A DNA stretch of 27,246 nucleotides from a virus: positions 1-27,246 of the IMG/VR virus record IMGVR_UViG_3300010373_000117; one strand, 5' to 3'. Position 1 is the stretch's first letter. Each line of letters starts with the position of its first letter. The notes below the pieces were generated by a model, which made no database searches, was not told the origin of the DNA, and worked only from the letters and a program-made list of their open reading frames with translations. Positions 2,440-20,777 of this stretch are shown piece by piece. The translations under genes were made by a program, and so were the position numbers.

Positions 2440-3268
2440 CGATTGTAAGAAGCTTGAGAAAGTAACAAAGAAAGTAGATGAATTGCTTAAATGTTTATGT
2501 CTTCCATATAATCATGGTAAAATAGATTATCTTCATTTGTGTGCAATGATTGTTATTAGCGGAAGATTAAATAGCAAATTTCCTGGTTCTCACAATAATG
2601 TCGCGTCTATATCCAATATTCTATGCATTGATTATGGGGCCGCAAGTTATATGTGTTTTTGGCTTACTGCTTCTGGACATTTAGAGCCAACCTCAACTGA
2701 TGCAGATATTAAGTTAAGTCCTATAGGACTAGAATATGTAGAAAGGTATGTTAAAGACAATCTTTTCATATTATTCCGTAACAGGATGTTTGAGGCAATC
2801 AACGAAGAGCTATACCCTGGAGAGAGTCAATCAGAAGGGATAGAACCAGAAAACTCCATGTTGAACATAAAGATTGGAAAAGATAATTGCTCAAAGCAGT
2901 TATACGAGAAGATTCTAGAGCTTCCTTGTGTTTGGATGTGCTATTTTGGAATTATGGAGCCGTATACGGCTGACCCGAAGAAGGACGCGAAGAATCAGCT
3001 AAGCTTCGATATTTGCATGAATAGGTTAGAAAAGAAGAATACGAGTGAGTATATTGCAGATATTATAGGTAATATTCTTAATAAAGTTGTTAACCTGCCG
3101 GAAGATTTACGAAGAGAATACATTAATGAAGATGACCTACTGCATCTACACTATAGGGACTTTAATTTTAGTACTTACGTTAACGGAAAAATAATTAGAA
3201 TATGGCGTGGTGACGATGATGATAAATTTAGGGGAAATATTAATGACAGAACAAAAACCATTCCCTAA
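2420..3268 (+). CDS. Hypothetical protein with winged-helix-like N-terminus
   Basis: A 282-residue protein. Two ATGs lie at 2414 and 2420; I chose 2420 because an AGAAGGG element is better spaced for it. Residues about 35-110 look like a winged helix: a helical region, a segment resembling a recognition helix (ISNILCIDYGAASYMCFWL), the turn TASGHLEP, a short strand DADIKLS and then PIGLEYVERYV, similar to the end of many transcription-regulator wings. The remaining 170 residues have no recognised domain. It may bind DNA, but this is inference from pattern only. It overlaps the ligase-like gene by 26 bases. Confidence 0.5.
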   Translation: MKEMTFDDCKKLEKVTKKVDELLKCLCLPYNHGKIDYLHLCAMIVISGRLNSKFPGSHNNVASISNILCIDYGAASYMCFWLTASGHLEPTSTDADIKLSPIGLEYVERYVKDNLFILFRNRMFEAINEELYPGESQSEGIEPENSMLNIKIGKDNCSKQLYEKILELPCVWMCYFGIMEPYTADPKKDAKNQLSFDICMNRLEKKNTSEYIADIIGNILNKVVNLPEDLRREYINEDDLLHLHYRDFNFSTYVNGKIIRIWRGDDDDKFRGNINDRTKTIP

Positions 3269-4124
3269 CTTCCTGGGCAAGATTGAAAGAGGAAACCTAT
3301 TAGACTTTGCTGATGCTGTTGTATTAACAGAAAAGATGGATGGAAGCTACTTTCAGTTCGGTTGGTATGAGGGCGAGTTCAGGATGAGGACTAAGAATAC
3401 GCAAGATTACGAAGGTATTCCTAAGATGTTTAGTAAGGTTGTTAAGGAGCTAAATGAGCACAAGGATACGTTTCCGAAAAATGTTATTTTCTGCTGCGAG
3501 TACTTTCAGAAACCTAAACATAATGCTATTTGTTATGACTTCTCAAGCATTGGAGATATTGATAAAGATAGTTGTTTCCTTTTTATAATTTACGTAAGGA
3601 GTTTGACCGATAACCCGAATGAAGGGATTTGGCTTTTCCCTGGTAAATTTGGAAACTGTTACATTGGATACGTTCCTGATGTAACTTATGCTAATTATTC
3701 AGATCCGTGCCAAATGGCTGAGAGCGCCTATGGGGCAATCAGAGAAGGGATTGTCATGACAAATGCTAGAGGAGAACGATTCAAGTACGTAACAGACCAC
3801 TTCAAAGAGGTTCATGTCGGCCAGAGAAAGCCAAAGCGCCAGCATCCAGAGCTTGATTCAGTATGGTTCCCTTATATAGCAGGGCTTAAGGCTAGGGTTA
3901 ATAAGGCTATATTCAGGCTTAAAGAGGCCGGTATAGAGTTCAATAAGAGCACGTTTGGTAAGGTTATAGGCTCTACTGTTAATGACTTACTGGATGAAGA
4001 GAGCCAGAACATAAAGGAAGAGCTGTTCAGGTTCCATGAGAAGTCGTTTAAGAAGAAGGTTAATGCGGCTATTGTTGATATATTGTTTGATAAGTTGAGA
4101 GAGGAACCTTTAAGTGAGCGATAA
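3243..4124 (+). CDS. ATP-dependent RNA/DNA ligase-like nucleotidyltransferase
   Basis: A 293-residue protein of the covalent nucleotidyltransferase superfamily, which seals nucleic-acid nicks via a lysyl-AMP intermediate. Visible motifs in order: motif I EKMDGS with nucleophile K31; motif III-like IFCCEYF near residue 82; motif IV EGIVM near residue 170; and motif V-like FKYVTDHFKEV shortly after. The C-terminal 100 residues are helical. Length and motif spacing resemble phage RNA ligases of the Rnl2/RNA_ligase type better than full DNA ligases, which need an OB fold. An open frame extends 36 bases further upstream, but GGGGA precedes the ATG at 3243. Two tRNA genes in the same phage make RNA repair a reasonable role. 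Confidence 0.72.
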   Translation: MTEQKPFPNFLGKIERGNLLDFADAVVLTEKMDGSYFQFGWYEGEFRMRTKNTQDYEGIPKMFSKVVKELNEHKDTFPKNVIFCCEYFQKPKHNAICYDFSSIGDIDKDSCFLFIIYVRSLTDNPNEGIWLFPGKFGNCYIGYVPDVTYANYSDPCQMAESAYGAIREGIVMTNARGERFKYVTDHFKEVHVGQRKPKRQHPELDSVWFPYIAGLKARVNKAIFRLKEAGIEFNKSTFGKVIGSTVNDLLDEESQNIKEELFRFHEKSFKKKVNAAIVDILFDKLREEPLSER

Positions 4125-7362: not shown

Positions 7363-7439
<77 letters not shown>

Positions 7440-12688: not shown

Positions 12689-12773
12689 TGGTGGAGAGGG
12701 AAGGATTCGAACCTTCGAAGGCAGAGCCGCCTGATTTACAGTCAGGAGCCGTTGACCGCTTGGCTACCTCTCC
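12689..12773 (-). tRNA. tRNA-Tyr (anticodon GUA)
   Basis: An 85-nt class II tRNA on the minus strand with encoded CCA. Acceptor GGAGAGG/CCTCTCC is perfectly paired; D arm GCC/GGC; anticodon stem CCTGA/TCAGG around CTGTAAA, giving GTA; a long variable arm with GGC/GCC; T arm GAAGG/CCTTC with TTCGAAT. It is read against all the surrounding head genes. A weak minus-strand promoter (TTGAAT-16-TATATG, 12907-12880) lies about 100 bases upstream of its 5' end. Confidence 0.95.
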
Positions 12774-12935: not shown

Positions 12936-12964
12936 TTGACAACTGATCGAAAGTGCGGTATAAT
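12936..12964 (+). promoter_or_regulatory. Consensus sigma70 promoter before the portal gene
   Basis: TTGACA (12936-12941), a 17-base spacer and TATAAT (12959-12964), a perfect match to the bacterial housekeeping consensus. The start should be near 12971, leaving about 90 bases before the portal ATG. It is followed by GTAAGC, sharing TATAATGTAA with the promoter at 18966. Confidence 0.85.
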
Positions 12965-13000: not shown

Positions 13001-13081
13001 GTGGCAGACGCACAAAAAAATAATTACCAATTAAAACAACAAAAAATAGGTAAGCTCTCTAAATGTCTACAAATCTATTAG
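13001..13081 (+). CDS. Possible 26-residue leader peptide
   Basis: In the portal leader a GTG starts a short frame (VADAQKNNYQLKQQKIGKLS) that runs 19 bases into the portal gene in another frame. The only ribosome-site hint is GGTG a few bases upstream. Because the portal ATG itself has only a modest AGGTAAG, a short overlapping frame could couple to or tune portal translation. It may equally be chance. Confidence 0.25.
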   Translation: MADAQKNNYQLKQQKIGKLSKCLQIY

Positions 13082-16064: not shown

Positions 16065-16280
16065 ATGGAACCTGATTTCCATGAAAACTTATTAGATGCT
16101 TTGAGAAAGAGCATGCAAGCATATAGTGAAAGGATACTTTCAGGCTCTTTTTCAACATTTGAAGAATATAAAAGTTGTGCTGGTAGATTGCACGGACTTA
16201 AAGAAGCCGAGCATATTATTCAGAAAACTTATAAAGACATGTACGAAATAATACCGAAGTCATATTTAGCGAGGAATTAA
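16065..16280 (+). CDS. Small helical head-cluster protein
   Basis: A 71-residue protein starting 2 bases after the preceding stop; an upstream GTG in frame lies inside the previous gene. The pattern SFSTFEEYKSCAGRLHGLKEAEHII is typical of small helical proteins found next to portal genes in many tailed phages, of unknown function. Its last base is shared with the next start (TAATG). No membrane segment. Confidence 0.55.
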   Translation: MEPDFHENLLDALRKSMQAYSERILSGSFSTFEEYKSCAGRLHGLKEAEHIIQKTYKDMYEIIPKSYLARN

Positions 16281-16774
16281 TGTTATCGGCAGCTAAGACA
16301 GATAGCGTAACGAGTTACATAGAGCCACATGAGATAAAAGAAGCACAAGCTCTAATAGAGGGAAACATGAAGTTTCCTATGCCTCGAGTATGTGGATTCA
16401 ACATGCTTGTAAAGATTCATGTCAGGGAAGAAGACTTGTATGAATGCAAAGACAAGCATGGAAAGCCAATTATAGGAAGCAATGGACGGCCGGTAAAGAT
16501 TGCTATTCCTCCTGCCATTAGAGCTTCAGAAAAATACAGGAGCTGTACTGCTCTTGTTTTAGCTCAGGGTCCACGTTGTTATACAGAAGAAGAATATAAA
16601 GAAAGCGGTCCTCTATGTAGGGTTGGAGACTTTATTGTATTCCCAAGGAATGAATGTAGAGGCTCTCAATTTTCTTACCGTGGATTTCCAGTTCAAGTTA
16701 TTACTGATAAATGCGTTTATCAGGTTATTAAATGCCCAACAGATATAGTTAGGTATCGGGTAATGTTAGGTTAA
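16280..16774 (+). CDS. GroES-like (Cpn10-fold) protein 1
   Basis: A 164-residue protein. The line PRVCGFNMLVKIHVREE (35-51) matches the first strand of Cpn10; ALVLAQGP (91-98) matches the EVLAVG strand; CRVGDFIVFPRNECRG (113-128) matches the VKVGDIVIF strand and turn; the last strand is CVYQVIK. Co-chaperonins cap GroEL; phage versions such as T4 gp31 allow capsid protein folding. The expected mobile loop between the first two blocks has no hydrophobic tripeptide like IVL: it reads GKPIIGSNGRPVKIAIPPA. So this copy may not bind GroEL in the usual way. It is larger than GroES (97 residues) owing to N-terminal and loop insertions. Confidence 0.65.
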   Translation: MLSAAKTDSVTSYIEPHEIKEAQALIEGNMKFPMPRVCGFNMLVKIHVREEDLYECKDKHGKPIIGSNGRPVKIAIPPAIRASEKYRSCTALVLAQGPRCYTEEEYKESGPLCRVGDFIVFPRNECRGSQFSYRGFPVQVITDKCVYQVIKCPTDIVRYRVMLG

Positions 16775-16788
16775 TCGGAGGACAGACG

Positions 16789-17286
16789 ATGAGTGAAGCG
16801 GCAAATAGCGCAATTGATGAAGAATCTAAAAAGGTTATGTTTTTAGAATCTGTTAAACAAGAACTTGGAATAGATTTGCCAAGAGCATGTGGTTATCAAC
16901 TTATAGTTCGAGTTCATGAGCGAGCAAAGGAGTTAGAGGAAAAAAATAAAAGGATAATTGATTTACATGAGTCTAATTCCCCTAGTGGTAATATTATTTT
17001 AAGTCCTGAATCGAAAGACAAAGACCTTGCTGGGAAATTAATTGTTTTAGATAAATCTTTAGAACATGACAAATACACAAGAAAGGTTGGTCAAGTATTA
17101 GCGATTGGTCCAATTGGCTATAAAGGCGATAAATACAATGGAGTAGACCCTTATTGCAAAATAGGTGATTGGATAGTATTTCCTAGTGGCTGCGGAACTG
17201 AGATGTTATATGGCGGAATACCATGTCGCATTCTTAATGATGATAAGTGTCTTGTAATAGTGGATGACCCTAACTATGTAGACTAA
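16789..17286 (+). CDS. GroES-like (Cpn10-fold) protein 2
   Basis: A 165-residue protein with a good CGGAGG before the ATG. LPRACGYQLIVRVHERA (30-46) is the first Cpn10 strand; GQVLAIGPIGY (101-111), CKIGDWIVFPSGCG (123-136) and CLVIVDDP (154-161) follow the GroES order EVLAVG, VKVGDIVIF and ILAIV. Unlike its neighbour, it keeps hydrophobic tripeptides where GroES has its GroEL-binding loop: IIL at 69-71 and IVL at 85-87, the latter spaced before GQVLAIG much as in GroES. It probably works with host GroEL on the capsid protein encoded at 19884. The two copies share a PR-x-CG-x-x-x-x-V motif. Confidence 0.72.
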   Translation: MSEAANSAIDEESKKVMFLESVKQELGIDLPRACGYQLIVRVHERAKELEEKNKRIIDLHESNSPSGNIILSPESKDKDLAGKLIVLDKSLEHDKYTRKVGQVLAIGPIGYKGDKYNGVDPYCKIGDWIVFPSGCGTEMLYGGIPCRILNDDKCLVIVDDPNYVD

Positions 17287-18965: not shown

Positions 18966-18994
18966 TTGATTTATTCGCGTAACTGTGCTATAAT
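18966..18994 (+). promoter_or_regulatory. Strong sigma70 promoter for the capsid genes
   Basis: TTGATT (18966-18971), 17 bases, TATAAT (18989-18994), followed by GTAAAT. The start near 19001 gives a leader of about 250 bases before the decoration-like gene. It shares TATAATGTAA with the promoter at 12936. Confidence 0.8.
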
Positions 18995-18999
18995 GTAAA

Positions 19000-19241
19000 T
19001 TAGATTAGTAAAAGAGCAGACCCCTCTTTAAAAGGTCTGAAGGTAACCAAACTTCAGGTTGCGTAAGCCACAAGTTACGCGTGAGCAGACCCCTCTTGAA
19101 ACGGTCCGTGGGTATTTTAAACCACAGGTTAGTCCGAGCTAATAATTCGGATGGCAATATGCGCCTAGCATAAGGTCGACCAATATATGTTGGTCTAACT
19201 TGAATAATTAGACTTTTATAAAAAATATAAAAGAAGTCTAA
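19000..19241 (+). ncRNA. Structured leader RNA of the capsid operon
   Basis: The 311-base gap 18941-19251 has no gene after its promoter but is full of inverted repeats. In order: a duplicated three-hairpin module (19014-19151, listed separately), then GACCAA/TTGGTC with a 6-base loop at 19178-19195, then a long hairpin at 19208-19241 (TTAGAC/GTCTAA, a 3-base bulge, and TTTTATA/TATAAAA with loop AAAAA) whose 3' side runs into the AAGGAG ribosome site of the next gene. The last hairpin could stabilise the message or control access to the ribosome site. No known riboswitch class is recognised. Confidence 0.6.
19014..19151 (+). repeat. Tandem duplicated three-hairpin RNA module
   Basis: The 15-base string GAGCAGACCCCTCTT occurs exactly at 19014-19028 and 19083-19097, 69 bases apart, each opening a similar unit. 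Hairpin 1 pairs AGACC with GGTCT in unit A and GACC with GGTC in unit B. Hairpin 2 pairs GAAG with CTTC in A and GTGG with CCAC in B, so both sides changed together. Both units then have CAGGTT and a third hairpin: GCGTAA/TTACGC in A and TCCGA/TCGGA in B. Compensating changes argue that structure is selected. Confidence 0.65.
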
Positions 19242-19251
19242 GGAGTTTAAA

Positions 19252-19872
19252 ATGGCTTACGGAAACGGAAAAAATGCCCCAACTGGCTTTGTTCCAACTC
19301 GATACTTAAATGGATCTAGCTGGAATGAACAAACAAATCAATACAGAATCGCGAGTGCATATGCTGATGACTTAGGGCAAGGTGATCTTGTTACTTTAGG
19401 AGACGGCGTAATTGAAATTCTTTCAGAAGGCGGTGGAGAACAAGTTCTCGGCGTGTTCTGGGGATGTCAATATTTAGATTCTAACGGCAAGATGGTCTAC
19501 TCTAATCAATGGGTTGGAAATACGGCTGTTTATCAAGGCGGTTACGCAACAGCTTTTGTTGTCGACGATCCAAACGTTTTATTCAGCGTTCAGGTTGCTG
19601 ATAGTACTAATGCTAGAAATTACTTACAAATCGGTGATTTATACGACAACGCAGATTTTGTTGTTGCAGATCCTAATCCGTTAACCGGCTTATCTACCGC
19701 ATATCTTGACATAAACACGATTGCACATACAGCAACACTAAACTTAAAAATTTATGATTTAGATCCAAAAGTTGGAAACAATTTTGGAACCGCTACTACA
19801 TATAATTATAACAATGCTTTAGTTTTGCTAAACAATCATGTTTACAAGAGCGTTGGAACACTTGGGGTTTAA
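19252..19872 (+). CDS. Capsid decoration/stabilisation-like protein
   Basis: A 206-residue beta-rich protein with AAGGAG upstream. The order GFVPTRYLNGSSWNEQTNQYRI, DDLGQGDLVTL, QVLGVFWGCQYLDSNGKMVYSNQW, VVDDPNVLFSVQ and a final NNHVYKSVGTLGV matches a family of proteins encoded just before the major capsid gene in many marine and environmental phages, taken as head decoration proteins. It shares the leader and ribosome-site context with the capsid gene 11 bases further on, consistent with high expression. Confidence 0.7.
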   Translation: MAYGNGKNAPTGFVPTRYLNGSSWNEQTNQYRIASAYADDLGQGDLVTLGDGVIEILSEGGGEQVLGVFWGCQYLDSNGKMVYSNQWVGNTAVYQGGYATAFVVDDPNVLFSVQVADSTNARNYLQIGDLYDNADFVVADPNPLTGLSTAYLDINTIAHTATLNLKIYDLDPKVGNNFGTATTYNYNNALVLLNNHVYKSVGTLGV

Positions 19873-19883
19873 GGAGATAACAA

Positions 19884-20777
19884 ATGGCAATTAATTTAAC
19901 ACAAATACAAGCCTTAACCCAACCAGGTCTAGACGAAGTATTTGGAATGTATCACGACCTTCCAGAACAATGGAAGGAATTTTATTCAATCTATGAGTCT
20001 GATAAGGCACAAGAACAAGACGTGCAAATGAGATTCTTAGGTATGGCATCTACTAAACAAGATGGCGGTCCAGTACCAGTTGACACAATGGGGCAACGTT
20101 ACATTACCACGTTTGTGCATCAGTACGTTGGGAACTCTTTCGCTATCACAAGACAAGCGATAAAGGACAACCTGTACAAGACTCAATTCCCAATGATTAC
20201 GCAAGCTTTGCGGAAGTCTATGCGAGTTGCTAAGAACGTTATAGGTGCTGCTCCTCTTAACTCTGGATTTGATGCTACGAAGCCAATCGGTGACGGGAAG
20301 GCATTATTTGCTAACAATCACCCATACGATGGTGGAACATTTACAAATCTAGGAACTGTTCAATTTAGTGAACAAGGTTTAGAGCAGATGCTTATTGGTA
20401 TTCAAGCATTCGTAGACGTTGCAGGAAACATCATTTCTGCAAAAGGTAAGAAGTTGGTTATTCCTCCTGCCTTACAGTTTACGGCACAACGGTTGCTTGG
20501 TTCTGAATTTAGACCAGGTAGTGCTAATAATGACATTAACGCTATTAAGAGCCTTCAGGCAATTCCTGAAAGTTATACCGTTAATCATTATATCACTAAC
20601 CCAAACCAGTACTTCTTGTTTACTGACGTTGAAGATTGCTTCAAGCACTTTATCAGAGAAAAACTAGAAGTTAGCAGCTACTGCGATTTTGATACGGACA
20701 CCGTTAAACATAAAGTTATCGAAAGATATTCTTTCGGTGTTAACGATCCACGCGGGGCTTACGGTTACACAGCCTAG
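19884..20777 (+). CDS. Major capsid protein (HK97-type fold)
   Basis: A 297-residue protein with AAGGAG before the ATG. It has the features of phage capsid proteins of this length: an N-terminal helix-rich arm (LPEQWKEFYSIYESDKAQEQD), the E-loop-like GPVPVDTMGQRYITTFVHQ, the spine-helix region ITRQAIKDN and ITQALRKSMRVAKN, LFANNHP, KGKKLVIPPALQFTAQRLL in the P domain, and the final RYSFGVNDPRGAYGYTA, a recurrent C-terminal signature of these capsids. It assembles on the scaffold and possibly folds with the GroES-like proteins. The strong promoter, the structured leader and good ribosome site fit its need for abundance. Confidence 0.85.
   Translation: MAINLTQIQALTQPGLDEVFGMYHDLPEQWKEFYSIYESDKAQEQDVQMRFLGMASTKQDGGPVPVDTMGQRYITTFVHQYVGNSFAITRQAIKDNLYKTQFPMITQALRKSMRVAKNVIGAAPLNSGFDATKPIGDGKALFANNHPYDGGTFTNLGTVQFSEQGLEQMLIGIQAFVDVAGNIISAKGKKLVIPPALQFTAQRLLGSEFRPGSANNDINAIKSLQAIPESYTVNHYITNPNQYFLFTDVEDCFKHFIREKLEVSSYCDFDTDTVKHKVIERYSFGVNDPRGAYGYTA

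Follow-up and report, generated by a model that had tools for sequence, protein, structure and literature searches.

The question raised by this locus is whether a repeated, gene-free leader in front of the head genes of an uncultured phage forms a selected RNA structure and, if so, what that structure would do. The window, meaning the complete stretch of 27,246 nucleotides analyzed here, is a 27-kb fragment (G000) of an uncultured tailed phage with a G+C content of 39% and contains terminase, portal, two GroES-like and capsid genes. Transcription from a strong promoter is predicted by consensus to start at ~19001 and the first open reading frame past the promoter begins at 19252, which gives a leader of ~250 bases. 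As the initial annotation had described, a 69-base unit occurs twice in this gene-free leader. The features of the region are as follows.

18966..18994 (+): sigma-70 type promoter, TTGATT-17-TATAAT with TG extension (extended -10), a consensus match only
19012..19080 (+): unit 1, pseudoknot followed by hairpins P3 and P4
19012..19016 (+): unit 1 S1 5' arm AAGAG, pairing with CTCTT at 19024-19028 (sequence, and S1 covariation in relatives)
19018..19022 (+): unit 1 S2 5' arm AGACC, inside the S1 loop, pairing with GGTCT at 19034-19038 (S2 covariation in a sequence-only alignment)
19024..19028 (+): unit 1 S1 3' arm CTCTT, from the sequence
19029..19033 (+): unit 1 loop 3, TAAAA, A-rich in nearly all relatives
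19034..19038 (+): unit 1 S2 3' arm GGTCT, from the sequence
19039..19055 (+): unit 1 hairpin P3, GAAG/CTTC, with no gap after the pseudoknot
19061..19080 (+): unit 1 hairpin P4, GCGTAA-GCCACAAG-TTACGC; the loop GCCAYAAR recurs among relatives
19083..19152 (+): unit 2, pseudoknot, P3 and P4, the same layout in other letters
19083-19085 / 19093-19095 (+): unit 2 S1, GAG/CTC, weak (3 bp)
19088-19091 / 19103-19106 (+): unit 2 S2, GACC/GGTC
19108..19125 (+): unit 2 hairpin P3, GTGG/CCAC
19132..19152 (+): unit 2 hairpin P4, GTCCGA-GCTAATAAT-TCGGAT
19153..19197 (+): two more hairpins, 3' of unit 2 and before the ribosome-binding site (GGC..GCC region; GACCAATATATGTTGGTC)
19208..19241 (+): hairpin TTAGACTT...AAGTCTAA, ending at the ribosome-binding site AAGGAG (19240-19245)
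19252..19872 (+): downstream gene for a 206-aa putative head/decoration protein, no Pfam or PHROG match
19884..20777 (+): major capsid protein (PF25209 Phage_capsid_4; PHROG major head protein)

The sequence GAGCAGACCCCTCTT is present at 19014 and 19083, a spacing of 69 bases, and the extended pattern GAGCAGACCCCTCTTNAAANGGTC has only these two unit sites in the whole window, with a chance expectation of 0. In unit 1, helix S1 crosses helix S2 to form a classical H-type pseudoknot with a loop 1 of one base and an A-rich loop 3. The unit had originally been drawn as three simple hairpins beginning at 19014. All three hairpins are present, with the second and third (now P3 and P4) differing between the two copies as described, but the first is combined with a crossing helix into a pseudoknot. 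Unit 1 begins at 19012, because the AA before GAG is part of that second helix, AAGAG/CTCTT. The leader is indeed that of the capsid genes, although the gene immediately 3' encodes the 206-aa protein and the major capsid gene comes second. The predicted model of the 206-aa protein is all-beta, of low confidence (mean pLDDT 67), and its fold search against the PDB returned no match at E 0.001. A homologue in L019 (3001-4152) carries an additional C-terminal domain of ~150 residues.

None of 200 dinucleotide shuffles folds as well as the window leader (z -3.3; -3.7 in a second comparison), and the segment 19150-19245 has a folding z of -4.6, whereas unit 2 on its own folds no better than shuffles. 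Compensatory changes between two copies in one genome, which had been offered as evidence for a selected structure, are therefore thin evidence; the selected structure itself stands, and the convincing support comes from related phages. Elsewhere in the window, a perfect consensus promoter (TTGACA-17-TATAAT, 12936-12964) precedes the portal gene at 13063 and is followed by no pseudoknot unit. Two adjacent open reading frames (16280-16774 and 16789-17286) both match the GroES co-chaperonin PHROG phrog_3188 and are perhaps a duplication. The window also contains an RNA ligase-like gene (3207-4124) and genes for tRNA-Pro (TGG; 7363-7439, plus strand) and tRNA-Tyr (GTA; 12689-12773, minus strand).

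Relatives were gathered by using the 206-aa and capsid proteins as queries, and their leaders were then read. The same architecture, in different stem letters, was observed before the same gene in ~20 other uncultured phages. The exact core was far more restricted: L009 is another contig from the phage of the window, and beyond it the core was found in one other phage only (L003/L004, two contigs with the same leader), as two units spaced by 70 bases before a homologue of the 206-aa protein. Further exact-pattern matches (L001, L002, L005-L008 and L010-L012) look like chance, the following arms being absent. The breadth of stem replacement is illustrated by the L262 unit, which reads AAGAC-GGACC-TGA-GTCTT-CAAAC-GGTC plus GGAG/CTCC and is accompanied in that leader by GGGC/GCCC plus GAGA/TCTC. 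Other stems are AGGC/GCCT with GACAG/CTGTC (L176), CGAG/CTCG with AGCC/GGCT plus GCGT/ACGC (L261), GTGGT/ACCAC with TACCG/CGGTA (L280) and GTC/GAC with GCGA/TCGC (L267). One locus, L415, was recovered from the whole viral collection by DNA pattern alone, with no protein guide, and proved to be a leader of the same gene.

Units number one to two per leader and are usually tandem, two having been read in 14 of 21 lineages. The L018 unit and the second L266 unit are uncertain readings of the sequence by eye, and no clear unit was seen in the L260 leader. In isolated relatives for which a host is known (Pelagibacter, Caulobacter, Roseobacter, Alcaligenes and Planktothrix phages), the gaps are short and a leader is absent. 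By consensus-predicted starts, the +1 lies 0-16 bases 5' of the pseudoknot in 11 of 20 leaders; most of the others have a separate hairpin at the 5' end, before the units. At the opposite end of the leaders of L021, L256 and L277, a hairpin TTGAC..GTCAA presents the ribosome-binding site GGAG in its loop, suggesting that translation is controlled at its start site.

Covariation was evaluated by exchanging arms among 30 units chosen by eye (3000 permutations). Own arms pair in 26/30 units for S1, 25/30 for S2 and 24/30 for P3, compared with permuted means of 8.4, 12.0 and 11.6, and no permutation reached the observed values. Since these units were picked by eye, two less biased checks were run. 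In a sequence-only MAFFT alignment, 90.8% of S2 cells were paired, three pairs had changed on both sides, and the covariation score was 0.322 compared with 0.007-0.080 for slid partners. The 3' arms of S1 and P3 were not aligned by MAFFT, so these helices were tested by arm swapping instead, using 15 units selected solely by GACC..AAA..GGTC. Here P3 pairs in 14 of 15 units (permuted mean 6.7, maximum 13 in 5000) and S1 in 12 of 15 (permuted mean 7.1, the observed count being reached in 10 of 5000). Kinship of the sequences inflates such pairing counts, which are thus to be read as strong evidence and not as probabilities. Covariation in each of the three core helices exceeds that of shuffled and swapped controls. 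The outcomes that would have refuted the original proposal, no homologous leaders or no covariation, were not observed.

Model R1 was built from units of L174, L262, L255, L265, L415 and L276, leaving out the window's closest types, and recovered the held-out capsid leaders of L176, L015, L016, L277, L019, L257 and L280 as the top site per record at E 2.6e-6 to 4e-3; a further model, R2, detected the first L015 unit at E ~1e-3. In the window itself, R1 ranked the two units first and third within 27 kb, yet at E 0.29 and 0.44, so the window is tied to the family by its architecture, by its position relative to the gene and by the relatives L003 and L019 that are shared. The weaker R1 matches that were inspected elsewhere (G012, G005, G013) lie inside open reading frames. 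Hairpins with the P4 signature loop C[CT]A[TC]AA were counted 10 times in 21 leaders, compared with 0.86 in shuffles. A loose descriptor without G+C filtering returned many A+T-rich chance matches (43 versus 14.9 in shuffles) and was not relied on. In searches of whole records, many of them fragments, the element is confined to the capsid leader of one clade, at one place per genome, with no convincing units elsewhere in these phage genomes.

The distribution follows the capsid-protein tree, in which the phages carrying pseudoknot units, including the window, make up 21 of the 22 rows of one clade (support 98/92); the window branch is long, so its exact place within the clade is unsure. The sister clade of 19 rows (99/95) has a different element in the same leader position, consisting of two to four tandem hairpins with a conserved loop UYACGUAY on varied, compensating stems. 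There are 58 such hairpins with 14 different stems in 23 leaders, compared with 4.5 in shuffles, and they are a second unrecognized capsid-leader element. They lie directly after a TTGACA-type promoter and before the head gene (L097-L172, L177, L281, L282, L017, L022 and L023), and their leaders often sit behind an intrinsic terminator. In a third, more distant clade (L094, L478, L479, L481 and L486), a third conserved element, a hairpin TCGC-CCCGGYGY-GCGA followed by AUGA, is positioned just before the head gene, with an additional 5' hairpin after the promoter. Scans of genome contigs revealed nothing beyond that more distant clade.

Neither the pseudoknot units nor the ACGU hairpins are recognized by Rfam. 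At the gathering cut-off, the Rfam 15 covariance models yielded only the two tRNAs in the window, and leaders of the pseudoknot and ACGU types gave no match even at E up to 2-5, in agreement with the initial annotation, which knew of no matching family. The STAXI model (RF01728) matched 0 of 8 of these records at E up to 10. Comparison of the leader DNA with 50,697 phage records gave no match apart from a 25-base chance match in tail genes. The element is apparently undescribed in Rfam 15, the phage collection and the part of the open-access literature covered, and to that extent the earlier suggestion of a new class is supported. The two other suggestions made with it, a capsid-protein operator and a stability element, are considered below as candidate mechanisms.

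The element very probably has a genuine role in shell-protein production, as a switch, a docking site or a protective cap. We favor, with about even confidence, a mechanism in which the capsid-operon mRNA carries a structured leader that acts in cis and is bound by a clade-specific protein. In each unit the H-type pseudoknot would be stacked on P3 and followed by P4, and the repeated units would together act as one composite operator, at the 5' end of the mRNA or close to it. This operator would be recognized by a clade-specific RNA-binding protein, plausibly the product of the decoration or capsid gene that follows, and its binding would tune how the most abundant structural mRNA is translated or how it decays. 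The binding, its protein partner and the direction in which it acts are inferred; two facts make the 206-aa protein a candidate, its place and the agreement of leader type with capsid clade.

A realistic, though less probable, explanation is a 5' stability leader in which the structures block 5'-end-dependent decay (of the RNase E/RppH or RNase J type) with no dedicated protein, for which the 5' hairpin of T7 gene 10 is the comparison. Such a role agrees with the 5' position of the structures, which begin at the predicted +1 or close to it in 11 of 20 leaders and follow a separate 5' hairpin in most of the remainder, with stems that are free to change, with the structural nature of the gene, for which high expression is expected, and with whole leaders that often beat shuffles in folding (the window; L267, z -5.3), but the whole leaders of L255, L276 and L415 were no better than shuffles when nested folding was considered. 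Plain protection also needs no sequence conservation of loops, whereas the P4 loops and the sister-clade ACGU loops are conserved on changing stems, which argues for a recognizing partner rather than bare stability and is the reason that the protein-bound operator is favored. The unpaired bases of the pseudoknot itself, of which only the A-rich loop is kept, fit a purely mechanical role as well, and the variation in copy number between one and two likewise counts against the operator. It is unlikely that the unit binds RNA polymerase after the promoter as a nascent-RNA antiterminator and promotes terminator readthrough in the long structural operon. Units of ~66-70 bases directly after a promoter do resemble the put RNA of ~70 nt, but put is composed of two stem-loops and not of a pseudoknot and two hairpins (PMC9378689). 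The units moreover occupy one place per genome and are absent at other promoters such as that at 12936-12964, and 18 of 19 loci have no terminator-like hairpin in the 4-8 kb downstream, the exception being one weak hairpin in L260, whose leader has no clear unit; both observations argue against put-like antitermination.

Compact H-type pseudoknots and tandem arrangement are known among riboswitches. A tandem riboswitch or other ligand-binding aptamer is nevertheless very unlikely, since the pseudoknot keeps little but stem complementarity and the A-rich loop 3, with no strictly conserved unpaired core for a ligand pocket, and there is neither an Rfam riboswitch match nor a terminator beside the units. 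The least probable explanation is a feature of the DNA (operator repeats or a single-stranded DNA structure), an option that was also considered for tandem pseudoknots by the authors describing STAXI (PMC2864571). Every unit lies on the coding strand, after the promoter and before the gene, their stems change by compensation without keeping the letters of a binding site, and the S2 wobbles, in small numbers (4 cells), are G-U on the sense strand and never A-C.

Extending the protein-bound operator to the whole lineage, we tentatively propose that its tailed phages may control capsid production via operators in the leader to which their own capsid or decoration proteins bind. The RNA operator, whether pseudoknot units, ACGU hairpins or the CCCGG hairpin of the third clade, would have changed clade by clade in step with its protein. 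If true, these leaders would represent a natural series of RNA-capsid recognition codes. With leader elements replaced clade by clade at a single gene position, RNA-protein co-evolution becomes open to testing, and the pseudoknot-hairpin unit is compact enough to be tried as a portable mRNA control part. For tailed-phage biology, the result is a structurally supported, apparently undescribed class of RNA element placed where the amount of shell protein is set.

Among known systems, the T7 gene 10 leader likewise has a 5'-terminal stem-loop on a capsid mRNA; it differs in being one simple hairpin with no repeated units and no pseudoknot. The put RNA of HK022 is also a ~70-nt module directly after a phage promoter that occurs twice in a genome. 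It comprises two stem-loops in early operons with no pseudoknot reported (PMC9378689), whereas a pseudoknot and two hairpins are present here and no downstream terminators were found. The pan motif also places simple RNA structures in tandem before an operon, and its authors interpret these as a dimeric protein-binding site (PMC2864571), but it is a hairpin with two bulged A residues associated with cellular pantothenate genes. STAXI (RF01728) shares a tandemly repeated pseudoknot, in two or three copies, but has UUCG tetraloops and lies near DNA-handling genes (PMC2864571), namely ssb, topoisomerase, antirestriction or integrase genes, in place of the head-protein and major capsid genes found here. 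A further parallel is the gene 32 operator bound by gp32, likewise an H-type pseudoknot in a phage mRNA 5' leader, the pseudoknot here being supported by covariation only. The gene 32 operator is a single copy before a replication gene, that of a single-stranded DNA-binding protein, and is followed by unstructured A+U-rich RNA; the present units are repeated, carry P3 and P4, precede head genes and are followed by more structure down to the ribosome-binding site. The leader pseudoknot of T4-type gene 32 is perhaps the sole viral pseudoknot in translational autoregulation (PMC3014915), and a repeated pseudoknot on capsid mRNAs would therefore be a notable addition.
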